The position numbers were made by a program, and so were the translations under genes. Below, one piece after another: positions 2,203 through 17,938 of a DNA stretch of 20,010 nt. The stretch is from a virus: positions 1 to 20,010 of the IMG/VR virus record IMGVR_UViG_3300020731_000100. One strand, written 5' to 3'. Every line of letters starts with the position of its first letter. The first letter of the stretch is position 1. The notes under the pieces are model-generated. The model was not told where the DNA came from. It saw only the letters and a program-made list of their open reading frames with translations, and did no database searches.

Positions 2203-5200
2203 TTAAGCCCCGGCTTTAATTGCGCCAGTATTTTCTAAGCGTAATGGAATGTAAATGAATTCCACTGACTTAACTGGTTCAACCGCAATGTCAATCCAAA
2301 GTTGGTTTTGGTCAATTCTTGTTGGAGTATTGTTTGACGTATCGCAAACTACAATGTAGTCGTACAATGCTCTTTGTCCTACTAGTTGTAATAGGAAACT
2401 TTCAATTGTTCGTTTGATCTCACCACGAGTGATTTGATCGTTTGGTTCAAACAAGTATGGTTTCGCAATTAAACCTAGTTGACGACGGATATATGCTGTT
2501 AAACGAGCAACGTTGATACGATCTAAACTGCTTGCTGCACTAGCACGAGTGTATTGACCCATTACAACAATACCAGAACCTGATAATGTTGCGATTGGGT
2601 TAACCTTAACTTGTGCCATAACATCACGTGTACCCTCTGGTAATGCTGTTGTATGGAACTCAGACTGATCATCTAAGTAACCTACTGAACTTACGTTGTC
2701 GACTACACCACGGCGTAAACCTGCTGGAGCAAACCATGGATAACTCTTCTGGTCGCTTTCTGCGATTGTACGTAACATAATGTGGCTTGGTGGAACAACA
2801 ATATAGTTTCCAGTATTGTCTGTTGTATATCCACTTGGGTAGTAGAAAGCCATGTAGTCGTCATAACTTACTGCGCCATCTGGACCGTTATCAAACGCAC
2901 CGTTACTATTATTACCCCATGCTAACAATGAAGTAGCATCTGGTGTTAATGTAAATGGTGTATCACCGATAACAAACGCTGTTTGTGAACGATCAGCATT
3001 CAATTCAATTAAGTTTTGAACAGCTTCTGGATAGCCTGGGCAAGCAATTAAGTTGAATATTAATGTATCAGTATCACGAATTGCTGAACTTGTGTCGATT
3101 AATGCTTTTAATGATTTAACAACTAAACCACGTTGAGCATGTTGACCAAAGCTACCTACACCTTCTGGAGTGTTAGGACTTACAGTAACCCAACGTGCTG
3201 TGTTGTATATAGTGTTGCCACCAGCACCGTCCATAAACTCGTTATTGTAACGAATGTTTTTACCACTGTTAGAATATACGTTGATATAGTTTGACTGATA
3301 ACGTTTTACGTTAAAGCCAGAACGACGTAGGTTCCATAGGCGTGTACCTTTTGGATATAATGCTGGATCTGGACTATCTGGATCAACATAATCACTTACT
3401 AACAACGATTGAATTGTTGATGGTGTAGTTGCTTGTCCGCTTGTTGCGTAACGAGCATCATAGAAAATCCAACCATTTGGTGTTGTATGATCTGTAGGAT
3501 CTTGTTGAACCCATTGTAGAGTTTGGCCGTTCCATACATAGATCTCTTGTCCGTATTTTGTAATATCTGCTGTACTGATCCAGATATCGCCGTTTACTAA
3601 GTCTGTACCATCGCTTTGGCCGCCTGTTAGTAATGGAGCAGTTGCGCTGATGATAGGACCGTTTGGATCTGTATTTGGATATACATTTTTGTAACCACGG
3701 AATTTAGTACCATCGTGAATCATGATATCTACTTCGTCAACTACTGAACTGTACCAATATGTACCGTCTGCTGGTTCTTGGAATGGAGCAATTTGAGTTG
3801 CTTCAAACACTAGTGGTTGCCAGTTAGAAGCACGATATGTATAACCATCTGTATCATACATGCCAGTAGCGTAGAAGTTTGATGTACCAGTAGCAACTCC
3901 AGTATTAACATTACGTGACCATGCTGTATAGCCCATGAATGCTAGTGGAGTATTTGTACCGTCTAAGAAACGAATTTCGCCGCCTGTGCTGTGACTGATT
4001 GTTAATTGATATGTTGAAGCATTATATGTAGCAGAAACATATTGGAAGCCATTTGAGCCTGCGTTGATATATGTAGCAACATCTTCTAATGTATCACCTC
4101 GGTTAATTGTAATAACTGCTGGAGTACTGAACTCACCGCCTGCGATCATTTCTTTTAGTGTAAATGTACTTGTTGAAGTGAACACCAATTCAGACGATGC
4201 AGTCGGAGTTGTAACTGTTGTTGGTCCAGTAGAAACTCTGCGAAGAATTTCAAACTCAGCCAATTGTGGTTCACCTGCTAGACCTACACCGTTATCATAG
4301 TTAGTATCGATATAGATTGAGCCTGTAGCAATTTTTCTACCTAATCCAGCTGAATCTAAACCAGCAATAGCAAGTTCAGGTGCTGAGTATAAAGGTGCTG
4401 CAATTTCTGTCCATGCGCCACTTGCTGCACTGTATGTTTTAACATCCCATGAAGCGCCTTGGTTAGGACTTGTTGTCTTGATGTATACAGAACCACTTGG
4501 AGCACTTGTAAAGTCTGGATAAGCTGTATGTGGACCTTGGAATAATTGTGGTCCTTCATATGTACCAGCAGATAGACCTAACGCTGTTAACAATGTTGCT
4601 GTGCTACCAACTTGGATGTTGATCTTACCATCTTGTACATCTTTGTTTTGAATTGTAACTGCTGGAATGCTTGTATAAATTCCAGATTGAACTGTAATTG
4701 CGCTCAATCCGCCATTTGATACAGTAACGTTAGTTACAGTACTTCCGCTAACAACAACTGTTGGAGCAGTAGCATAGTCAACACCAGGAGCAGTAACTTG
4801 AATACTGTCAATATCAAATGTTAAGTTTAACGTACAACCAGAACCTGTGCCACCTGTTGTTGAAACAGGGTTGGTGGGAATTGCTGTGTATTCACCTTGG
4901 TTGCTAATTGTAGCCGCTAAAATTGCGCCAGTTAATGTATTAACTGCTGTAACTGTAAGTTGAGCAATAGATGTTGATGTAGTAGCAGATCCACCTAGAA
5001 CTGTAAGAACGTTACCAACTGCGTAGTTTGTACCGCTGTTAGCAAATGTTTTAGCGTGAACTTCCATAATTGCGCTAGCCACTGCACCGCTTGCACCGTT
5101 ACTAGCCGCTGTAGCATCTGCGTATAACTGAATATAGTTACCTGTACCAACTAATGCGTTAACACCGTGTGTACGCATAACGCTGTTGATACTTGAAACC

Positions 5201-6024
5201 ATAGCGTTTAAGTTAGTACCTCTTAATATAACAGTTTGACCGTTAATAAGAACTGTAGCATTATTGTAAACTGTTAGATCACCTACAACTGTTGTGCCGG
5301 TTACTACTGGGAAACTTGTTTGCCAGCATGTTGATTTGAATGAAACGCCTGCTGTAAATCCTGTTTCTGTGTTAGAACCAACTACTACCCAGTTACCTGC
5401 TGTATTTTTATACCATAAAGTAATTGTGTTAGCACTTGTAGCAACAATAGCGTATGTACCAGCAACTCCTAAACTTGCTTTAGGAGTATACATATCGTTC
5501 ATTAGATATGTGGCCGCGCTGTCGTTATCAATAACAACAGGAATTTGATTAGTAAATGCGCCAGCTACTTCGTCCCATTGGAAAATACCCCATAGTGTAT
5601 TTGAAGTAGTATCTAACCAATATGTACCATCAGCCGCCGCACCCTCTGGGGAACTAGCTTCTGGCATTAATTGACCTAAGTCTAAATCTGCTCTGGCAAC
5701 GTATGCTTGTGAGCTAACGCCTAGTAAACTGTATGCGGCTTGTAGACCGTATTCGTTTAGTTCGCCGCCGTTAATTGGATTACCGCCAGCATCTGTATAG
5801 AAGCTTGGAGTACCGAAAGTATCAGTAAGATCTCGCTGACTTGTTACTACATATACTTTGCCAGCGTTAGCTTGTTGAGTACCAACTGCGATACCTGTAC
5901 CGCTAGCATTTTGTTTGTCTTGTGCAGAAGCAACGATAATTAGTGGAACAGTTCCTGGAGCCGCTGGGCCATAAAAACTTTGATCGATTACTTGTACTTC
6001 TACGCCTGGTGAATTAAGTGCCAT
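2203..6024 (-). CDS. gp18: Tail sheath protein gp18, unusually large
   Basis: This is the contractile sheath subunit that surrounds the gp19 tube. The N-terminal part (residues 1-115) has the family start SPGVEVQVID, a DLTDTFGTP motif and YGLQAAYSLL...AYVARA. The C-terminal part (about 890-1273) carries the conserved sheath core, with INVARLTAYIRRQLG, EPNDQITRGEIKRTIESFL and VEPVKSVEFIYIPL. T4 gp18 has 659 residues; this one has 1273. The extra length is an insert of about 770 residues (about 120-890) made of small beta-rich units, including G-x-Y-[AT]-x-x-P repeats (about 329-459) and 'GTYWLDT'-type hairpins near 133, 510, 567, 753 and 811. Such inserts should decorate the outer surface of the sheath. 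GGGAGAA at 6031-6037 supports the start, and a late-type octamer lies upstream. Confidence 0.93.
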   Translation of the reverse strand: MALNSPGVEVQVIDQSFYGPAAPGTVPLIIVASAQDKQNASGTGIAVGTQQANAGKVYVVTSQRDLTDTFGTPSFYTDAGGNPINGGELNEYGLQAAYSLLGVSSQAYVARADLDLGQLMPEASSPEGAAADGTYWLDTTSNTLWGIFQWDEVAGAFTNQIPVVIDNDSAATYLMNDMYTPKASLGVAGTYAIVATSANTITLWYKNTAGNWVVVGSNTETGFTAGVSFKSTCWQTSFPVVTGTTVVGDLTVYNNATVLINGQTVILRGTNLNAMVSSINSVMRTHGVNALVGTGNYIQLYADATAASNGASGAVASAIMEVHAKTFANSGTNYAVGNVLTVLGGSATTSTSIAQLTVTAVNTLTGAILAATISNQGEYTAIPTNPVSTTGGTGSGCTLNLTFDIDSIQVTAPGVDYATAPTVVVSGSTVTNVTVSNGGLSAITVQSGIYTSIPAVTIQNKDVQDGKINIQVGSTATLLTALGLSAGTYEGPQLFQGPHTAYPDFTSAPSGSVYIKTTSPNQGASWDVKTYSAASGAWTEIAAPLYSAPELAIAGLDSAGLGRKIATGSIYIDTNYDNGVGLAGEPQLAEFEILRRVSTGPTTVTTPTASSELVFTSTSTFTLKEMIAGGEFSTPAVITINRGDTLEDVATYINAGSNGFQYVSATYNASTYQLTISHSTGGEIRFLDGTNTPLAFMGYTAWSRNVNTGVATGTSNFYATGMYDTDGYTYRASNWQPLVFEATQIAPFQEPADGTYWYSSVVDEVDIMIHDGTKFRGYKNVYPNTDPNGPIISATAPLLTGGQSDGTDLVNGDIWISTADITKYGQEIYVWNGQTLQWVQQDPTDHTTPNGWIFYDARYATSGQATTPSTIQSLLVSDYVDPDSPDPALYPKGTRLWNLRRSGFNVKRYQSNYINVYSNSGKNIRYNNEFMDGAGGNTIYNTARWVTVSPNTPEGVGSFGQHAQRGLVVKSLKALIDTSSAIRDTDTLIFNLIACPGYPEAVQNLIELNADRSQTAFVIGDTPFTLTPDATSLLAWGNNSNGAFDNGPDGAVSYDDYMAFYYPSGYTTDNTGNYIVVPPSHIMLRTIAESDQKSYPWFAPAGLRRGVVDNVSSVGYLDDQSEFHTTALPEGTRDVMAQVKVNPIATLSGSGIVVMGQYTRASAASSLDRINVARLTAYIRRQLGLIAKPYLFEPNDQITRGEIKRTIESFLLQLVGQRALYDYIVVCDTSNNTPTRIDQNQLWIDIAVEPVKSVEFIYIPLRLENTGAIKAGA
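3357..5667 (-). repeat. Inserted beta-module region inside gp18
   Basis: Approximate span of the non-core part of the sheath protein (residues about 120-890). It contains at least five G-[ST]-[VIY]-[YW]-x-x-[TS] hairpins (residues 133, 510, 567, 753, 811), several followed by an aromatic/DG/W signature, plus three units of the form VxxPGxDYATAPTVVV. These are degenerate protein-level repeats; I did not find long DNA-level identity between them. Boundaries are estimates. Confidence 0.6.
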
Positions 6025-6124: not shown

Positions 6125-6460
6125 ATGAGAAAACTATGTAAAACTTGCGCTAGTAGACCTGTAGCAGTGAATTATTATAAAGAGGGCAGACCTTTTTATA
6201 GGTCTCAGTGCGATCATTGTTCTAGAGGTAGGGGAAATGGAACCCCTGGCTGGAAACGTGCGGGGTATAAAAAGAAAGATCAGTGTGACAAGTGCGGGTT
6301 CAAATCTAAGAGCCTGGAGATCTTTAATGTATTTTATGTAGACGGCGATTTAAACAACAATCGCCCTAACAATTTAAAAACTATATGTGCGAACTGCCAG
6401 CGTGTTCTTCATAAGGAAGGAGTTCGTTGGACTCAAGGGGATCTGACACCAGATTTTTAA
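6125..6460 (+). CDS. Small zinc-finger, degenerate HNH-like protein
   Basis: The 111-residue basic protein has four CxxC pairs (C5/C8, C29/C32, C54/C57, C88/C91) and ends in an HNH-like core: a DGDLNNNRPNNL stretch (73-84), then ICANCQRVLH. HNH nucleases normally have a His or His-His just before the DGD-type turn and CH after the last CxxC. Here these are FYV and CQ, so the expected catalytic His is absent. It may bind DNA or RNA without cutting. As I recall, close relatives occur in T4-like cyanophages as proteins of unknown role. The start is supported by AAAAAGGGCGG just upstream. Its last 80 bp overlap the 3' end of the kinase gene on the opposite strand. Confidence 0.8.
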   Translation: MRKLCKTCASRPVAVNYYKEGRPFYRSQCDHCSRGRGNGTPGWKRAGYKKKDQCDKCGFKSKSLEIFNVFYVDGDLNNNRPNNLKTICANCQRVLHKEGVRWTQGDLTPDF

Positions 6461-7073
6461 CTTGGGCATAAAGATCATCAATGCTAGTATTATTGTCTAG
6501 CACAAAATCAAAGTTTGTACCAACCCAAGCAGTTTCGCTAGCATGAATTCCGGCACGTTCTAATCTAACTTTACTGGTAGACCAAGTAACGTTACCGTCT
6601 GGCCCTCGGTTGGCACTAACTGCGGCATCATACCATTCGGGTTCTGGACCACGTACAACACGTACTACAATTCCGCCTGCGTCTTTAATTGATTTAATTT
6701 CATTAGGAAAACGACAATCGCTAATAACAATATCGTCTTTACTATTGCGTAGTTTATTTTCTAATGCCGCAATCCAAATATCATCATGGAATGATTTACG
6801 ACAAACTTCAGTGCCCCAATATTGTAGTACCCAACGTGGAGTTAAATGTGGCATATTTAAGCGTTCTGCCCACCATGGATCTACTTGTTCACGCCATTCA
6901 CGGGCTTGCTTTGTACGGCCTTCTAGCATTGTTCTATCCCAACCAAAGACCATACTAACAGCATCTTTCAGTGTATTCGCAAAACTCTCTCGTCGAAATC
7001 CATGAAAATTTGTAAGATAATCAGCAATAGTATCTTTGCCAGAACCAATAAAACCGCACACACCTATAATCAT
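6381..7073 (-). CDS. gp1: Deoxynucleoside monophosphate kinase (T4 gp1-like)
   Basis: This cytoplasmic enzyme phosphorylates dNMPs to dNDPs with ATP and feeds phage DNA synthesis. The 230-residue length is close to T4 gp1 (241). A P-loop GFIGSGKDT lies at residues 7-15, and the typical DIVISDCRFPNE strand-loop follows in the middle, then GGIVVRVVR. AGGAG at 7079-7083 supports the start. It is the only gene here with a perfect host-type sigma-70 promoter (7096-7124), which fits early use. The last 26 codons lie opposite the conserved end of the HNH-like gene; the tail after DLYAQVKNLV is probably not part of the kinase core. It sits among structural genes, away from other nucleotide-metabolism genes. 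Confidence 0.92.
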   Translation of the reverse strand: MIIGVCGFIGSGKDTIADYLTNFHGFRRESFANTLKDAVSMVFGWDRTMLEGRTKQAREWREQVDPWWAERLNMPHLTPRWVLQYWGTEVCRKSFHDDIWIAALENKLRNSKDDIVISDCRFPNEIKSIKDAGGIVVRVVRGPEPEWYDAAVSANRGPDGNVTWSTSKVRLERAGIHASETAWVGTNFDFVLDNNTSIDDLYAQVKNLVSDPLESNELLPYEEHAGSSHI

Positions 7074-7918: not shown

Positions 7919-9148
7919 ATGCCAAGACTCTCTCTTTACCGTCCCGAAAAGGGCAATGATTTTAAAATGCTCGATAGGGTTATTAACGAGCAATTTCAGG
8001 TAGGCGGAACTGATATTTTTATTCACAAATATATAGGTCCGCAAACTGCCGCGCCCGCTAGCACAGAAGGAGGAGTTCCTGGTGTTGCTAATGCTACTAC
8101 ACCTGAATTAGGAATTCAGGACGTAATTTTCATGGAAAATAGAGATAGAAAGTACGATGCTGATATCTATAGTATTCGTGGAATTTACACAATGAACGAC
8201 ATTGACTTTAATTTAAGTCAATTTGGATTGTTTTTAAATAGCGATGATATTATGATTACATTCCACTTAAGAAATATAGTGGAAACAATTGGTCGTAAAT
8301 TAATGGCTGGAGATGTTTTAGAACTTCCTCACTTAAAAGATGAGTATGCCAGTAACGATGATTTAGTAGCATTGAAAAGATTTTATGTAGTGACTGACGT
8401 AAGTCGTCCTGCGTCTGGTTACAGTCAAACATGGTACCCACATTTACTACGTGCTAAAGTAGGACCATTAGTTGACAGTCAAGAATTTAGTCAAATTCTC
8501 AATGCTCCGGCAGGAGATGGCAATAAAACATTACGAGATGTTATTAGTACATATAATCAGAATATTGCTATTAATAATCAAATTGTTGCCCAAGCAGAAA
8601 TTGACGCTCCACTAAGCGGATACGACACAACTCCATATTATGTTTTACCGTTAGAGGATCGAGGAGACGGAGAAGATACCTTACAGTTAGAAGATGCTAG
8701 TGATACTGAGCTCGATGCTAGTTTAGATAATCCTGCTGTTGATGCTAGTGCTGTATTTGAAAGTCCTGCTAAAGATCTTTATATAGGATACATGACTGGT
8801 GGAATGCCACCTAATGGCGCTCCTTACGGATTTGGAATTGCATTTCCAACACAAGGAATTGTTACAGGACAATTTTATCTTAGAACAGACTTTGTACCTA
8901 ATCGTTTGTTTAGATTTGACGGACAAACATGGGTAGCATGGGCTGACAATTTAAGAATGACTATGTCAAATACTTACGATGCTAACGCAACAAATCAAGA
9001 TCTAACACAACCGCAAAGTAGTACAAGTACAAGATTAACACAGACTACAAGCTTCATTAACAATAATAATACTGCTACAATCGCAGGTCAAATTGTTCCA
9101 GAGCGCCAAGCACTAAGTAAAGCATTAAGACCAAAGGCAGATAATTAA
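7919..9148 (+). CDS. gp14: Neck protein gp14
   Basis: This is the second neck/head-completion protein, which works with gp13 at the head-tail joint. The 409-residue product begins MPRLSLYRPEKGNDFKMLDR and then QVGGTDIFIHKYIGP. It contains ENRDRKYDADIYSIRGIY, DIDFNLSQFGLFL, GDVLELPHLKDEYA and SQTWYPHLLRAKV, all typical of cyanophage-type gp14. T4 gp14 is shorter (256 residues). The extra C-terminal part (about 230-409) is acidic, then carries a module with GQFYLRT (317-323) and FRFDGQTWVAW (331-341) like those in gp18 and gp15, and ends in a Thr/Asn-rich tail. The gene ends 1 nt before gp15 and is probably co-transcribed with it. Confidence 0.9.
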   Translation: MPRLSLYRPEKGNDFKMLDRVINEQFQVGGTDIFIHKYIGPQTAAPASTEGGVPGVANATTPELGIQDVIFMENRDRKYDADIYSIRGIYTMNDIDFNLSQFGLFLNSDDIMITFHLRNIVETIGRKLMAGDVLELPHLKDEYASNDDLVALKRFYVVTDVSRPASGYSQTWYPHLLRAKVGPLVDSQEFSQILNAPAGDGNKTLRDVISTYNQNIAINNQIVAQAEIDAPLSGYDTTPYYVLPLEDRGDGEDTLQLEDASDTELDASLDNPAVDASAVFESPAKDLYIGYMTGGMPPNGAPYGFGIAFPTQGIVTGQFYLRTDFVPNRLFRFDGQTWVAWADNLRMTMSNTYDANATNQDLTQPQSSTSTRLTQTTSFINNNNTATIAGQIVPERQALSKALRPKADN

Positions 9149-9149
9149 A

Positions 9150-10265
9150 ATGGAATTTTTCTACGACGGCCAAGTAAAGCGTTACATCAATCAGTTTATG
9201 CGATTGATGAGTAATTTTAGCTATCAAGATGGTAGTGGCAAACTTACACAAGTTCCTGTTCGATACGGTGACTCTAGTCGACAAGCTGCATGGGCATTAA
9301 CTAAAAACTCAGAGAACATTGTTAATTCTGCGCCTTTTATTGCCTGCTACGTTAAGGGATTAGACTACGATAGAAGTCGCATACAAAATCCATATCATGT
9401 AGATAAGATTAATATTCGAGAACGTGCGTTTGATGAAGTAGGAAATGTCTACTTAAACGAACAAGGTGAAAATTATACCGTTGAACGTTTAATGCCAAGT
9501 CCCTTTAAATTAACTTTTGTAGCAGATATTTGGACAACTAACACAGAACAAAAATTACAAATATTAGAACAGATTCTAGTGTTGTTTAATCCAGCAATGG
9601 AAATACAAACCAGTAATAATTTTATTGACTGGACTAGTTTAAGTTACGTTGAATTAACCGGAACTACTTGGTCAAGCAGACAAATTCCTCAAGGAGTTAG
9701 TAACGATATTGATATTTCCACACTAACTTTTGAAACTCCTGTATGGATCACAACTCCAGCTAAGGTTAAAAAATTGGGTATTGTTACTAAAATTATTGCT
9801 AACATTTTTACAGAACCAGCAGGTACTACATTAAGCACAGGATTAGATTTTGGTATTCCAGTAGTTAAGCATACTGTTACTCCAGCAAATCTAAGTGTAT
9901 ACATTATGAACAATACTGTAACACTTATCCCGCAAGGCGATCCGATTATTGGAGACGAATATACACAAATTCCTATTCCAGCAGGCCCTACGGTTAATTG
10001 GAATTCTGTATTAAATGTATATCCTGGAAAATATCGTTCAGGACTTAGTCAACTTGCGTTTACTAAACCAGACGGTACACAAGTTGTAGGTGTTATTACA
10101 TTAAATCCTAGCGACGATACACAAATGTTAATTAATATTGATCCTGACAGTATTTTAAACACACCATTAACTGATTTAGCAGACATTTATACTAGAGGAA
10201 CAATTAATGCAGTTATTGATCCTACTACATTTAATCCAGGCACAAACATCGATCCTGATACATGA
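9150..10265 (+). CDS. gp15: Tail completion and sheath stabiliser gp15, ending at an in-frame TGA
   Basis: gp15 caps the top of the tail, stops sheath assembly and joins the tail to the neck. The first 225 residues or so match the family: MEFFYDGQVKRYINQFMRLM, VPVRYGDSSRQAAW, then FIACYVKGLDYDRSR, ERLMPSPFKLTFVADIWTTN and QILEQILVLFNP. T4 gp15 has 272 residues; this product has 371 before the TGA at 10263-10265. Beyond the TGA the same frame stays open for 92 codons with protein-like content, so the full gp15 was probably 464 residues with Trp (TGG) at this position. The start is 1 nt after the gp14 stop, which suggests coupled translation. Confidence 0.9.
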   Translation: MEFFYDGQVKRYINQFMRLMSNFSYQDGSGKLTQVPVRYGDSSRQAAWALTKNSENIVNSAPFIACYVKGLDYDRSRIQNPYHVDKINIRERAFDEVGNVYLNEQGENYTVERLMPSPFKLTFVADIWTTNTEQKLQILEQILVLFNPAMEIQTSNNFIDWTSLSYVELTGTTWSSRQIPQGVSNDIDISTLTFETPVWITTPAKVKKLGIVTKIIANIFTEPAGTTLSTGLDFGIPVVKHTVTPANLSVYIMNNTVTLIPQGDPIIGDEYTQIPIPAGPTVNWNSVLNVYPGKYRSGLSQLAFTKPDGTQVVGVITLNPSDDTQMLINIDPDSILNTPLTDLADIYTRGTINAVIDPTTFNPGTNIDPDT

Positions 10266-10544
10266 TACTTAATATTAGAAGACATAGGCAATACTGATGT
10301 AGAAAACGGTCAAGGTCCTATTGCCTGGCGCAACTCAGACAACACTGATTTTTATGCCAAGGCAAATGATATTATTCAATGGGACGGTGCTAGATGGAAC
10401 GTTATATTCGCTTCTGAGAATAACCCAACTGTACTTTACATAACTAATTCATACACTGGCATTCAATACAAGTGGGATGGTGAATCATGGACCAAGAGCT
10501 ACGAAGGAGTATACGATGCCGGTAACTGGCGTTTGATACTATGA
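10266..10544 (+). pseudogene. gp15: In-frame C-terminal extension of gp15 beyond the TGA
   Basis: Ninety-two sense codons continue the gp15 frame after the TGA and stop at TGA 10542-10544. The translation has a YLILEDIGN start, ANDIIQWDGARWNVIF, then YITNSYTGIQYKWDGESW and GNWRLIL at the end. These DG-x-x-W hairpins resemble modules in gp14 and gp18. From memory, gp15 of related phages ends in a similar segment. The stretch has no plausible start of its own with a ribosome binding site. Its stop overlaps the Nudix ATG as ATGA. It is either the remnant of a truncated gp15, a segment made by TGA readthrough, or real coding sequence broken by one wrong base (A for G) in the data. Confidence 0.75.
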
Positions 10545-10981
10545 CAAAAATAATATGTAGTGGCGGGTTATTCCTAAGTAAAGAAACAAATAGATTTTTA
10601 TTCCTATTGCGTAATCAAGGACGAACCGCAGGAACTTGGGGACTTGTTGGCGGTAAACAAGAACCAGATGATGCTACAGCATATCAAGCATTAGAAAGAG
10701 AAATTAGCGAGGAGGTAGGAAAAACTCCGCCTATTAAGAAAATTATTCCTCTTGAATTATACACTAGCGAAGACCAAAATTTTCATTTTAATACATACGT
10801 TCTTATTGTAGAAAAAGAATTTATTCCTACTCTAAACAAAGAACATGTAGGATATGCTTGGTGTGATTTAAACAATTGGCCAAAGCCATTACATCAAGGC
10901 GTAAAACGTAGCCTATCTAGTAAGATAAACAAAACAAAAATTGAAATTATTTTAGAATTACTCGGGGAATACAAGCCCTGA
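10541..10981 (+). CDS. Nudix hydrolase
   Basis: Nudix enzymes cleave nucleoside diphosphates linked to another group (NDP-sugars, NADH, ADP-ribose, oxidised dNTPs, RNA caps). The 146-residue product has the box at about residues 38-60: GGK, EPDD, then REISEEVG (53-60), with the metal-binding RE-x-x-EE glutamates E54, E57 and E58 in place. The first half of the box is one residue longer than the standard G-x5-E-x7-REUxEExGU form and has D in place of the first E. The substrate cannot be told from sequence. No ribosome binding site is visible; the ATG overlaps the TGA of the gp15 extension (ATGA), so translation probably depends on ribosomes arriving from gp15. Its last 24 bp overlap the convergent gene. 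Confidence 0.88.
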   Translation: MTKIICSGGLFLSKETNRFLFLLRNQGRTAGTWGLVGGKQEPDDATAYQALEREISEEVGKTPPIKKIIPLELYTSEDQNFHFNTYVLIVEKEFIPTLNKEHVGYAWCDLNNWPKPLHQGVKRSLSSKINKTKIEIILELLGEYKP

Positions 10982-12038: not shown

Positions 12039-12390
12039 CCCCCGGGGCTACATTCGGTTTAGGTAGTGTAGCGTCGATCGGAAGAGGTCTTTTAGCATCA
12101 TTACCGATTTTTGGAATAGTAGATGCTGATGATAATCCGTGTGTTTTAAAGATTACATTCCACAAATCTTGAATGATTTCTGGTTCTTGACTAACGTCAG
12201 AATCTTGATATAATCTATACACATTGGTGTTAGAAATTGGAAAATGTGGATCATTTGAACCAGGGTCATCAACTGTAATAGTTGTATGAATCCATAGAGC
12301 ATGTGGTTCATCCATAGGATCTCCGTTTGCTCGAGATGTCTCGGCAGTATATCTAATTTGATCAATTGTTGTTGTTTTAGTTATTGCCAT
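12034..12390 (-). CDS. Hypothetical tail-region protein
   Basis: I do not recognise this family. The 118-residue product starts [14 protein letters not shown] and has [24 protein letters not shown], then [14 protein letters not shown], and a Pro/Ala-rich end. The MAIT start, the beta-then-helix layout and the length recall the two paralogues downstream, but similarity is too weak to claim by eye. Its first 14 bp overlap the 3' end of the large fibre gene, and AAGGAAG within the fibre coding sequence serves as ribosome binding site, so the two are translated from the same message. Confidence 0.75.
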
Positions 12391-15300
12391 TTATCAGCTT
12401 CCTTACCATTTCTTTTAAGTCATCAATTTCGTTTTGTTGTTCTTTGATAGCTTCTATTAGAAGACCTACGGTATTTGCGTAGCTCAATCCATACATATCT
12501 GTTTCTTCATTGTATGTAACCAATTCTGGAACAACTTCGTTAACTTCCTGAGCAATTAACCCTAGTTGACGCATTGTACGTTTAACTTGTGGGTTACCCT
12601 CTAAGTCTTCATTTTCTACTTTTTCGTAGTATACACCACGTAATTGCTTAACTTTATTTAATGCGTTATCAATTGTGACGATATTTTTCTTGTATCGTGA
12701 GTCAGAAGTTGCGTATACGTTACCCTGGGCATAAATGCTACCAGTTGAGAAAATACGATATCCGTTATTACCACTAGTACCAAAGTTAGAGTTACCAGAG
12801 TTATATGTCCAGTATACTAACCAACCCCAAGATTGGTCATATAGTCCAATATCTGTACCGCCACGACCCATTAGGGTAAACGAAGCGTCTACGTTATATC
12901 CTTGCCATCCGCTACGTCCGCCTGAGTATGTACTTACGTTACCATAAGATCCGCCTTGGTTCTCTGGCCACCATAATCCGTGTCCATAACTTTCGCTATA
13001 CAATCCAGTACCGCCTTGAGCACGGAACCAGTTGTTTGCGTGAACTGTAGAAATATAGCTGTCTGATCTAGGAACAATATAGTAACCGGTGTTAGCAGAG
13101 TCATAATAAATCGGTGACTGCATTGCGCCGTTGGCCCAAACAGTTGATCCGTTATCCCAGTGTAAGTTCCATCCTACATAACTTGTGGTATTACCATAAC
13201 CTAAATACCATGCGTTAGCAGATAAGTTAGTTACAAGACCCCAATACGTTGAAGCATTGTTAATTGCTAGAGCACTACCGTTATTGCTGTATGCGTTGGC
13301 TTGATGTGTTGCGCCGGCAGCTGTAGTAATATAATAGAATACAGATGTACTAGGTGGATTTAAGTAGTAGCTAGTATTGTTGTTTAGGTACATGACACCG
13401 TTGGTGACTTTTTGTATATCCCAACTTGCCCAGTTACCGTTTAAGAAACCATAGCTACCGCCGCCGTTACCGTATAATTGATATCCAAATTGTCCACCAC
13501 TACCGATACCTAAAATACCAGTATCGCCTTGACTTGATTGAACTTGTAAGTTACCATTACCGCCATTAGAAACAGTTTTACTTGCGCCAAATTGAACTGC
13601 CGACAATACACTTGTACTGCGAGGTATTAAGTAATAGGCTGTATTTTGCGAGTCGTAAACTGTGCCGCCTACGTAAATTGGGCCGTTACGATAGTAGTTA
13701 ATATATGCGCCATAGCTTGCGCTAGCAGATTCGTAATGTAAGTTACCGTTAGTTGCCGCAATTTGAGCAATACCCGAACCTTGGTCAATACCATTGCCAC
13801 CGATATGGAACTGTGCTGACCAGGAAGGGTTAGGACCAAAACGTATACCGTTATATGTAAAGCTGTTGTAACCGGCCGGATTCATGTAGTAACCGGTGTT
13901 ACCATAAGCATAAACATAGCTATGGTATGCGGCTTGTCCAGTTAATACTGTATACGGACCTAATGCTAGTCCAACGTCAGTTGCTCCACTCCATGTTGGA
14001 GATCCCCATGAAGTACCGACTTGGTCAAGTCTTATTAAGTGGCCGCCGTTACTACCTAAACCCCACCATCCTGCTCCACTCCAGTTAGAAACAAACGCCG
14101 CTTGTGTTGTATAAGTTGCACTTGGGTTACCAATTACACCGTAACCGTATAAAGAGTTAATTACACTTTCGCCACTAGCTTTTAGATAATATGTTGTATT
14201 AGCATTGTCATACATATTACCGCCAACATACAAGTTGCCAGTAATAGTTAAGTTACCTGATGCGCTACCGCCGCCTGTGATTGTACCGGCAGAGTTAGCA
14301 TAGTTAGAAGTATCAGCATACCCGGCGTAGATTTTACCCCAACCTGTCCATGTTCCGTTTTCTTTAAATCGAATGTTTAAGTAAGGATTGCCATAACCAT
14401 AACGGTTAATAGCAGTTTGCATTGCGTAACTGCTGTAGGCATAGTCGTTGCCTAGGCCTTGGTTCATTACATAGTACTGATATAACCCGCCTGGTCCGTC
14501 TGTTACTGCGCTATCTTGATGTACAAAATAGAAACCATAGCCTGCTGGACCAGAGAAGCTTTGATAAGTAGTATGATTGTAACCTTGATTATTAAACAGT
14601 TGACTACGTGTTACGCTTGCGCCAAAACCAGAATCATATAATGCTGTAGAATATCCACCTGCGTTACCTGTAATGCTACCAGTAATTGTATTTGAAACTG
14701 TTAGGCCTGAGAATATACTTGTACCAGCTGGTTTAGCATAATATGATGTATTGCTTGAATCATAAAAATACGGTGCTCGCATATCTGTAACAGCATAAGC
14801 AGAACCGTTAACGTTTAATTGATATGTTGCGGCAATTGTTGTACCAATAACTGTGTTACCAGTATTATTTTGAATCGAAAATACGTTTGTACCTGCTGAT
14901 GTACTTGTAGCATAACGGAAGATCCAACCGCGACTACCTGTGTCCATTACAAAGTAAGTGGCATAGTCACTATTAACACCGCCGTGTGTTCCGTATGTAC
15001 CAACTGCCTTAAACATCATGTTAGATGTTGTACCAGCGATAGTAGTCCATAAACTTACACCGTTACCAAAAGATGTGCTGTCTCCGTTTTTGTTAGTAGC
15101 AATACCACCTACTAAAGTTAAGTAGTATAGGTATGAGTTAGCACTAGGCTGTAAGTAATATGCGTTATTAGAATAATCGTAGAAATATGTAGCGTAGATA
15201 GGACCGTTAAAGTTACCAGTAACTTGACTGTTTGTAACATATCCTACGTCATTAGTTAACTGACTTAATTTAGTTAAGTTTTGTGCGTTCCAGTCTAGTA

Positions 15301-17938
15301 CATACGCACTACCTGTATAATAGTACGGTTGTTTGTCACTGTTCTGAATCTTAAATCCAGTACCAGAAGTGCTATTCCAGAAATAAGCATCAGTAGTCGA
15401 AAACTGTACATAACCTACAGTGGTACCGTTGCTTTGGAAAAGCATTTGCGGATTAACTTGCGTAGTGTTTAAATATAATCCGTCAGTTGCGTTGGTACTA
15501 TGTGTAAATCTACCAGTAACGTCAATTAAACCACCTAAGGTAGAAACACCGCCGTTTGGTCTAAATGCTATTTGAGTAGCATCAAATTCCATTGGGCCAT
15601 ATGTAGAATTTCCTCTATTGTAACTAATACCATATGCGGTTGTGCCGCCTATACCAATTTCAAAAGCTAATGCGGTATCTTGTGCGCTACTATACCAGCC
15701 AGTGGCACGTATTTGTCCACCAGAACTAATTGTTGCCGCAGATCCTAAGTTACCGGTAAATCTTCCTGTTCCTGCAACGTCAAGCATATATGCTGGAGTT
15801 GTTGCCGCACCAACTTTAACGTTGCCGCCGCCAGATCCTAAGAATGTATATCCACCGCCACCTGCTATATCAACGTTACCTGCTACATATTTTTGTAGGT
15901 ATGTTACACCAGAAGCAGTAGCCGATTCGATCGCAATATCGCCTTGACCATAACCTTTAATGTTAGCCGCTGTAGATGATCTATCAAAATATGTAAGGTA
16001 ATTTGTATGGTCTGTTAAATCGATAACTGTTGCTTGAACAATGTAAAATATTAACGGACTGCCTGATGATGGAGCAGGACTACCTGAAATATAAAAATAG
16101 TTAGTAGACGCAAATGTTCCACTATCACCAGTCATTACCACGTAAGCGTATTCTTCCCACTTACCTGTACCCACGTTGTTTGTTAACCAATAAGTTTGAC
16201 TGTTATTACCAATACCGTTTGATGCCCAGTTAATTGTATAACCAACTGGCAATAATGTTTTAAATGTTGCTACTAGTACTCTATTCGGACTAGTACCTGT
16301 ACTAAATGTAAATCCGCCAAAACCCGGACTTTGTGAGTTACCAGCAATTCTAACTTGTAGAGCATAGTTACTTCCGCCTAATCCGTTAGCGGTTGCGTTA
16401 GGGGATCCTACAGGAGCAGTGATCCTTGTAATTGTAACGTTACCTGATCCGTTATTATCATAAACAGAAATACCGTTTAAGCCGCTGTAAAAGTTTTCAT
16501 CAGGATATAATCTCTTACCACCAATACCTGCGGCAGTATAACCAATTGTTGGAGCACCTGCTAGGTTAGTATCTCCTGGTGTATACCAATTTGTTCTATT
16601 ATTGAATTTTAATCCGCCAGGGGCACCGTACCCTGTTGCTCCAACGTTAAGGTTAGCACCATCATAAGTAAATCCACTTGAACCGGATAATACTCCAGAA
16701 CCGTTTACATATATAACTTGGTTGGCGGAGCCTGCCGATACACCAGCACCAGTTGAACCAGCAACACCAGTCGCGCCTTGTGGTCCAGTGGCACCAGTAG
16801 CACCAGTTGATCCTAATCCTGTGGCACCAGTTGGGCCAGTAGACCCAGTAGCACCGTTAGATCCGTTTGTACCTTGTTGTCCAGTAGCACCAGTAGCACC
16901 TGCCGAACCAGCAGATCCAGTTTGTCCTGTCGCCCCAGTTTGTCCTGTTGCTCCAGTGGCACCTTGTGCTCCGGGTGTACCTGCTGTACCAGCACTACCT
17001 GTCGCTCCGGGAGCTCCCGTTGCGCCTTGAGGACCTGTGGCACCTGTGGCTCCGATAGCACCTGTGGCTCCTGTACCACCGCCTTGTCCACTTACACCAG
17101 ATGCCCCTTGAGGACCTGTAGCACCTGTTGCACCAATAAATCCAGATGCTCCTGTAGCACCTTGATTACCAATAACGTTAAAAATCCATGAAGCGTATGT
17201 ACCTGCTCCGCTAACCGCAACAACGTTAACTGTAATTGTTAAGCTGATAGGGTTAACTGAGGTAACCATACCCTGCATGTTAATTGTAGGAACAGTTTGA
17301 TAATTTACACTAACATAAGTACCTTGTTGATACGCACCAAGTTGGTTAACTGCCCATGTTTGAGAACCTAATCCAATTGTTACAGCAGAGGTAGAAGTGA
17401 CATTATTATAACCTGGTCCAGTTGCTCCAGTTGCTCCAGTAGAACCAACAGTTCCCGAACTACCTGCGCTACCTGTAGCACCTATCGGACCGGTAGCACC
17501 AGTTGCCCCTAACGGTCCTGTAGCACCAGTTGATCCAGTTGCCCCTGGATTTCCGCTAGGGCCAGTAGCACCTGTAGCACCAGTAGAACCTTGTGTACCA
17601 CCAGTACCTGCTTGTCCTGTTGCTCCTACAGGGCCAGTAGCACCTGTAGATCCCGTAAAACCAGTTGCGCCAGTTGATCCAGTTGCCCCTGTATAACCAG
17701 TTGCGCCCGTAGCTCCTGTAGCACCAATATATCCCGTAGCACCTGTAGCACCTGTAGCACCCGCAGGACCAGTTGATCCCGAATTTGCTGGTGTAAAATA
17801 AAGGTTACCTGTACCGTCTGTAGCAATAACGTTACCAGATGCCCCCGCATTCGCAGGCAAGGTAAGAGATACTGTCCCCGTACTAGGAGATTTTAAGGTT
17901 ATTGAGCCTGAGGCGCCGGTATCGAAATTAATTGACAT
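12377..17938 (-). CDS. Collagen-like tail fibre with S74 self-cleaving chaperone
   Basis: This is a likely receptor-binding fibre, 1853 residues. Visible parts in order: an N-terminal head (1-52); collagen-like Gly-x-Thr repeats (53-176); a beta domain (177-258) with the [20 protein letters not shown] type seen in other phage tail proteins; a second collagen-like stretch (259-399); a beta-sandwich-like region (about 440-660); fibre shaft modules, including an LTNDVGYVT motif; a pyocin-knob-like part ending in [13 protein letters not shown]; and seven copies of a 'YDxxNTxYYLxPxxxS' unit. Residues 1744-1853 are an intramolecular chaperone with the SDSRYKKNI signature, [13 protein letters not shown] and a C-terminal coiled coil. 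A late octamer lies 18 nt before the ATG; the ribosome binding site is weak. Confidence 0.92.
12380..12706 (-). other. Peptidase S74 intramolecular chaperone domain
   Basis: Codons for residues 1745-1853 of the fibre. Known S74 domains trimerise the fibre and then cut themselves off before the Ser of the SDxRxK motif. Here S1745 and K1750 have the same five-residue spacing as the Ser/Lys pair of endosialidase. Cleavage would fall between T1744 and S1745 and release a chaperone of 109 residues. The C-terminal [18 protein letters not shown] helix is a typical trimeric coiled coil. Confidence 0.85.
13056..15200 (-). repeat. Seven 'YDxxNTxYYLxP' fibre modules
   Basis: Seven degenerate copies of one unit are spread through the fibre, with cores [72 protein letters not shown] and [12 protein letters not shown]. 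Each is followed by a Ser and then a hydrophobic strand. Similar units occur in many T4-like phage fibres. The copies are separated by unrelated segments of varied length, which suggests each caps a shaft segment. Confidence 0.75.
16742..17164 (-). repeat. Second collagen-like GAT repeat stretch
   Basis: About 47 Gly-x-y triplets (fibre residues 259-399) dominated by GAT and GPQ/GSA-type triplets with few breaks. Thr in the third position is usual in bacterial and phage collagen-like proteins, which lack hydroxyproline. The GGTGCTACTGG-type DNA is internally repetitive, so copy number could change by slippage or recombination. Confidence 0.85.
17411..17782 (-). repeat. First collagen-like GAT repeat stretch
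   Basis: About 41 Gly-x-y triplets (fibre residues 53-176), with runs of GAT broken by GYI, GYT, GFT and GST triplets. It should form a rigid triple helix near the N-terminal, particle-side end of the fibre. Confidence 0.85.

Follow-up and report, generated by a model that had tools for sequence, protein, structure and literature searches.

A hairpin unit common in phage tail fibres appears to recur in the neck protein gp14 and the tail sheath protein gp18 of a T4-like phage

Comparison with a profile drawn from other phage proteins indicates that the neck protein gp14 and the tail sheath protein gp18 carry what appears to be one real, shared small unit, which recurs in virion proteins and in tail fibres above all. 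The unit was already common in tail fibres. The relation of gp15, the tail sheath stabiliser, to this unit seems marginal. We consider the fibre-type hairpin to be, on balance, a fixed building block of the gp14 neck and the gp18 sheath, with a role that is most likely structural.

The DNA analysed (the window) is a linear IMG/VR record of 20,010 bases from a T4-like phage, in which gp19, gp18 and gp13 are encoded on the minus strand and gp14, gp15 and then a NUDIX-like gene on the plus strand. Relatives of gp15 in GenBank belong to jumbo phages, including PA5oct, Phosso, Atu_ph07 and RaK2. Related IMG/VR loci were retrieved (n=80), and near-identical homologues were left out of the alignments, which kept 39 sequences of gp14, 37 of gp15 and 19 of gp18. 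Elsewhere in the window, positions 12377-17938 on the minus strand encode a collagen-repeat fibre of 1853 aa that includes a Peptidase_S74 endosialidase chaperone domain. A small ORF at 6125-6460 looked HNH endonuclease-like by eye, and a likely deoxynucleotide kinase at 6381-7073, named by eye and from the Phosso annotation, overlaps it tail to tail. The gp14 features are as follows.

7919..9148, plus strand: gp14-like neck protein of 409 aa, phrog_11591 'virion structural protein', between gp13 and gp15
8867..8950, plus strand: hairpin unit of gp14 (GQFYLRTDFVPNRLFRFDGQTWVAWADN), fibre-unit HMM E 2.8e-5 for this window

The unit spans roughly 35 residues and follows the pattern P..P..G-[DQT]-x-[WYF]-[YWL]-x-x-T ... 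[LIV]-[YFK]-x-[YW]-[DN]-G-x-x-W-V. It is visible across the 39 non-redundant aligned gp14 sequences, and a motif pattern for gp14 matched 76 of 80. The strings that a preliminary description of this DNA had quoted from gp14, gp15 and gp18 are all present, that of gp14 (GQFYLRT...FRFDGQTWVAW) at 8867-8950 on the plus strand. Comparison of gp14 with T4 gp14 by hhalign was weak (E 0.15); identity with the T4 protein, assigned from gene order and phrog_11591, is tentative. Homologues of both gp14 and gp15 are annotated as present in virions of PA5oct by ESI-MS/MS, and those of CBB are given as virion proteins by mass spectrometry in an excerpt of PMC5259590.

The sheath protein holds several such stretches, listed here with the other features of its gene.

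2203..6024, minus strand: tail sheath protein gp18 of 1273 aa, carrying a large insertion (PF17482 54.5 bits, cut-off 26.9)
5545..5631, minus strand: gp18 unit A (DGTYWLDTTSNTLWGIFQWDEV...), with only weak matches to a widened HMM
5377..5466, minus strand: gp18 unit F, a look-alike meander (VAGTYAIVAT...WYKNTAGNWVVVG) with predicted strands and without a significant profile link
4399..4497, minus strand: gp18 unit B (SGSVYIKTTSPNQGASWDVKTYSAASGAWTEIA), aligning with unit A within the internal duplication (E 4.6e-5)
3994..4119, minus strand: Flagellin_IN-like (flagellin-hook) segment, Flagellin_IN PF07196 near cut-off
3688..3768, minus strand: gp18 unit D (DGTYWYSSVVDEVDIMIHDGTKFRGYK), for which homologues reach E 1.4e-5 with the fibre-unit HMM
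3502..3594, minus strand: gp18 unit E (NGDIWISTADITKYGQEIYVWNGQTLQWVQQ), the best gp14 partner in the windowed scan, with weaker HMM matches

Identification of gp18 was clear (phrog_10581, E 7.5e-202), and most of the 19 sequences keep its hairpin-like stretches, four or five in number (A, F, B, D and E). They lie at 3502-5631 on the minus strand, outside the interval in which the preliminary description had placed them together with the gp14 and gp15 strings. Part of gp18 is duplicated internally over about 175 columns, each copy combining a hairpin with a flagellin-hook-like domain (E 4.6e-5). The insertion with this duplication takes up window positions 3358-5742. Flagellin_IN (PF07196) scored 23.2 bits in the gp18 fragment and 22.4 in the whole protein, on either side of the cut-off of 22.7, and matched 8 of the 19 homologues at E<=0.1; a fold search with the insertion returned flagellin and FliD at Z of about 7 to 7.9.

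Direct profile comparison of gp14, gp15 and gp18 gave scores close to background. The short motif [YFILV]x[WYF][DN]Gxx[WF] matched 37 times in 244 protein clusters, where shuffled sequences gave 1.56 matches and reversed sequences 1; relatives inflate the count, and almost all of the matches fall in gp14 and gp15, none in gp18. A second motif scan of six cultured phages, covering seven regions, stayed near background, with counts of 9 against 3.4 and of 7 against 1.55. Full-length profiles of the three proteins did not match one another significantly (best E 0.12). Among 2,756 ORFs and reversed decoys, the unit HMMs found nothing beyond their own family at an E below about 0.5. Searching PDB sequences with the unit profiles of gp14 and gp15 returned chance-level matches only. 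In an unbiased windowed profile scan the unit-unit pair ranked first in all three cross-protein comparisons, with scores of 20.5 (gp14 and gp15), 22.0 (gp14 and gp18 E) and 20.6 (gp15 and gp18 D). The best scores in a null test were 20.8, 19.5 and 19.5 against best-of-eight column shuffles of 19.0, 19.3 and 18.4, and a reversed control of gp14 against gp18 reached 23.7, above the real score. With its control failed, the direct profile-profile comparison was too weak and was rejected as sole proof. The preliminary description had named scores no better than background between the proteins as grounds for giving up the idea of a common module, and taken alone these scores would have amounted to such a refutation.

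Such scores are what would be seen if aromatic [DN]-G hairpins arise repeatedly, so that the three proteins are alike by chemistry and not by descent. The shortness of the motif also fits convergence, as does gp15, where the full pattern once ascribed to all three proteins (G-x-[FYI]-[YW]-...) is represented by its second half only. For the unit as a whole we regard convergence as an unlikely explanation that still deserves weight, since E-values of about 1e-5, with no decoy, link gp14 and gp18 D to a fibre-unit HMM, several of whose matches take in the leading P..P..G segment as well.

The link to tail fibres came through two leads. A gp15 profile weakly matched (E 0.083) the Atu_ph07 protein AUZ94958, which has two tandem units, and phrog_16122 pointed to an XaC1 tail fibre. 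A tblastn search with the tandem unit of AUZ94958 reached 123 records from phages of Vibrio, Synechococcus, Streptococcus and others, and the majority of the listed ones are annotated as tail fibre. The best match outside gp14 to the gp14 region in tblastn was a Geobacillus tail fibre at E 0.03 (62.5% over 24 aa). The 10 units of the fibre-unit HMM came from tail fibres and other phage proteins; they were chosen by eye from 15 pattern matches after two ME01 duplicates and three non-units had been dropped. The HMM was run against the 2,756 ORFs and an equal number of reversed decoys, E-values being given for 5,512 sequences. Built without gp14, it matched gp14 at a best E of 4.9e-6 (2.8e-5 for the window); built without gp18, it reached 1.4e-5 for gp18 unit D. 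Domain matches at E<=0.01 numbered 34 in gp14, 18 in gp18 and none in reversed or other sequences, counts that are not independent because homologues repeat; at E<=1 one other ORF appeared and no reversed decoy.

Since the units were gathered partly by our own loose pattern and picked by eye, the seed could lean towards gp14 and gp18. An 8-unit HMM without the Geobacillus and XaC1 units, both of which came from searches led by gp14 or gp15, and retaining the Atu_ph07 units, themselves from the gp15-led match, still gave 19 matches in gp14 and 12 in gp18 at E<=0.01, with none in reversed or other sequences at E<=1. Adding gp18 units to the fibre HMM finds gp14 and, conversely, adding gp14 units finds gp18. 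Of the gp18 units, D matched the fibre HMM significantly and E more weakly, while A, B and F were not significant. No Pfam model covered the unit in six unit-bearing proteins (fibres and others), and phrog_8309 was matched by the unit at positions of about 20-55. Positions 611-642 of phrog_211 (head-tail adaptor Ad2, gp13) match the S-N03 fibre unit (E 0.0035), so the unit may also sit in some gp13 proteins. A literature search for a phage WDG motif found no paper, and searches on sheath/flagellin and on the gp15 extension found nothing on the hairpin unit among the entries listed.

The third protein differs in that its look-alikes lie in a C-terminal extension beyond an in-frame TGA.

9150..10262, plus strand: gp15 core, tail sheath stabiliser (PF16724 90.4 bits, cut-off 25)
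10263..10265, plus strand: in-frame TGA, where relatives with printed codons have Arg (CGT/CGC/CGA/AGA)
10266..10541, plus strand: gp15 C-terminal extension, 92 aa, with stop TGA at 10542-10544
10332..10409, plus strand: gp15 half-unit a (...ANDIIQWDGARWNVIF), from alignment, unit HMM and windowed profile scan
10431..10508, plus strand: gp15 half-unit b (VLYITNSYTGIQYKWDGESWTKSYEG), from alignment, unit HMM and windowed profile scan

The strings quoted from gp15 (IIQWDGARW and YKWDGESW, within 10332-10508 on the plus strand) lie behind the TGA and hence outside the 371-aa ORF. The extension is visible across the 37 aligned gp15 homologues, phrog_11196 spans both core and extension, and the reading frame reaches the end of the extension in 76 of the 80 relatives; it runs off the contig in L056, L076 and L078, and in L049 a stop lies at another point of the core. 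That stop, TAA at codon 302, is one base from the otherwise identical L041 and is a second lone stop. Against L001, L004 and L007 the dN/dS of the extension is about that of the core, which indicates purifying selection and would make the TGA at 10263-10265 recent, an error or read through. The NUDIX-like gene (window 10541-10981, named by eye and from its neighbourhood) follows gp15 directly, its ATG overlapping the TGA that ends the extension; a NUDIX gene is annotated beside gp15 in PA5oct, RaK2, Vibrio 2.275, XaC1 and CBB.

One alignment took in 33 of 38 gp15 extensions, five long-insert relatives being excluded. phrog_16122 matched 26 of these 33 extensions (best 8.5e-5) and in whole genomes found gp15 of Phosso and PA5oct in addition to the XaC1 tail fibre. 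The gp15 half-units gave an E of 0.12 with the eight fibre units, and one member reached 0.0041 after gp18 units had been added. The half-units are thus look-alikes of uncertain descent, which may or may not share an origin with the gp14 and gp18 unit, and for gp15 convergence is as good an account as descent. The proposal of one unit common to three proteins therefore holds up for gp14 and gp18 through the fibre-unit HMM and is weak for gp15.

AlphaFold2 predicts three short strands for the unit, with the second turn formed by [DN]-G (gp18 E and gp15b). For gp15, modelled with L001 as query, the mean pLDDT was 73.9; the extension was mostly confident beta structure (block-mean pLDDT 74-92), and half-unit b had predicted strands at 429-433, 439-442 and 447-449 (L001). 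The gp18 insertion was modelled at a mean pLDDT of 68.1 with three predicted strands each in B, E (fragment 720-723, 734-738 and 743-747) and F (fragment 97-101, 107-112 and 118-120); unit D was given two short strands, and in unit A the first strand was absent and pLDDT was low. For the structural comparison proposed in the preliminary description, the models of these two proteins show the three short strands in units B, E and F of gp18 and in gp15b. Three-stranded meanders being common, this agrees with a shared fold without proving one. Matches in the fold searches came mostly from the core of gp15 and from the flagellin-like domains, so that these searches bear barely on the extension and the hairpins.

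The position of the unit is constant in gp14 and gp15 across families and cultured jumbo phages. When gp14 and gp15 unit profiles were searched against 11 phage records, a gp14-like match was found in eight, these being all eight jumbo genomes searched, and the gp15 extension in seven (three clear and four weaker, 4e-8 to 0.0076). The gp15 profile did not find Vibrio 2.275 gp15 in this search, and T4, S-PM2 and HTVC008M gave no match to either profile. In SCTP-2 the gp14-like match lies apart from its gp15. The profiles found essentially their own protein in the 11 genomes, apart from two further sub-threshold matches in Atu_ph07, of which one falls in AUZ94958 and the other is unexplained. 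A second unit copy is present in RaK2 gp14 (E 0.0025), and a doubtful one in XaC1 gp14 (0.059). The unit is resident, not mobile, and duplication within a protein was the only kind seen. A cassette now moving among the virion genes of these phages, as an interchangeable unit spreading through the virion gene set would be, is barely credible: occurrence in several kinds of protein and the extra copy in RaK2 gp14 would suit it, yet the gp14 and gp15 sites are unchanged across deep divergence and whole-genome searches return essentially own proteins.

Carbohydrate binding, the function first suggested for the unit, appears very improbable from the profile evidence. The hairpins are aromatic-rich, and CBM_5_12 weakly matched 2 of the 39 gp14 sequences (best 0.0013) and 1 of the 33 gp15 extensions (3.1), but no Pfam CBM family exceeded its cut-off in gp14 homologues or gp15 extensions. 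Where the CBM_5_12 match was located, in four gp14 relatives (11.5-15.4 bits, cut-off 26.2), it fell in another insert near residue 200, outside the unit, and the chance-level PDB searches with the unit profiles also argue against binding. This CBM5/12-like insert occurs in gp14 of L038, L069, L073 and L076, always below cut-off. A likeness of gp15 half-unit a to CBM5/12, raised by our own pattern, was dropped, Pfam giving no support.

A further alternative is that the hairpins of gp14, gp15 and gp18 dock with one another and lock successive rings at the head-tail joint. The C-terminal part of T4 gp14 (residues 178-256) binds gp15 and touches its residues 203-245 after tail attachment (excerpt of PMC12270204); here, the unit of gp14 sits in its C-terminal half, and the half-units of gp15 in the extension. 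Mutual docking is nevertheless decidedly unlikely, as each ring of the sheath carries the gp18 copies anew, well away from the neck, and the unit occurs in fibres too.

Our preferred reading, that of a fixed building block, would start from a self-contained, uncurated hairpin common in phage tail fibres. In this jumbo-phage lineage one copy would have become fixed in the C-terminal half of gp14, the part that docks gp15 in T4, and several copies would have entered the gp18 sheath insertion, where hairpin and flagellin-hook-like block then duplicated together; the two shorter look-alikes of the gp15 extension might share this origin. By packing its aromatic residues the hairpin could form a small and stable element, serving as surface or spacer, that would prop accessory domains in neighbouring rings of neck and sheath. 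Alternatively, it might offer a docking face for other hairpin-bearing virion parts. By analogy, the virion mass spectrometry of gp14 and gp15 homologues and the binding of gp14 to gp15 in T4 would suggest a structural or docking role. It is a long shot that the hairpin is a general virion building block of fibres, neck and sheath, whose fibre and ring copies dock by like-with-like beta pairing.

Through the unit, a connection between the repeats of tail fibres and jumbo-phage neck and sheath proteins becomes testable, and the fibre-unit profile could serve to catalogue a virion module that is so far uncurated. For units this short, direct pairwise comparison fails where an outside profile works.

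Among known systems, T4 gp15, the tail terminator (PF16724; PDB 4hud/4huh), has its core fold in common with the homologue of the window gp15: the core of L001 matched it at Z 16.3 (rmsd 3.2, 168 aligned). T4 gp15 has 272 aa against 464 in the homologue, and the profile match is limited to the core. Type 3 multi-domain sheaths (PMC9230969) are described as having a conserved N- and C-terminal core with large accessory domains, for which adhesion or stability has in general been proposed; the sheaths of Atu_ph07 and RaK2 are among the models, and gp18 has a similar core-plus-insertion layout. The excerpted text of that paper compares flagellin for overall architecture only and is without mention of the hairpin or its duplication. 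Known fibre units occur in tandem as G-[DQ]-L-W-Y-[ND] ... Y-[DN]-G-x-x-W in S-N03, Vibrio K250, Javan141, Geobacillus PT9.1 and Atu_ph07. The present units resemble them in length, leading P..G, strand pattern and the [DN]-G-x-x-W turn; in contrast to those units, which belong to fibres or fibre-like proteins, they occupy fixed sites in neck and sheath proteins.
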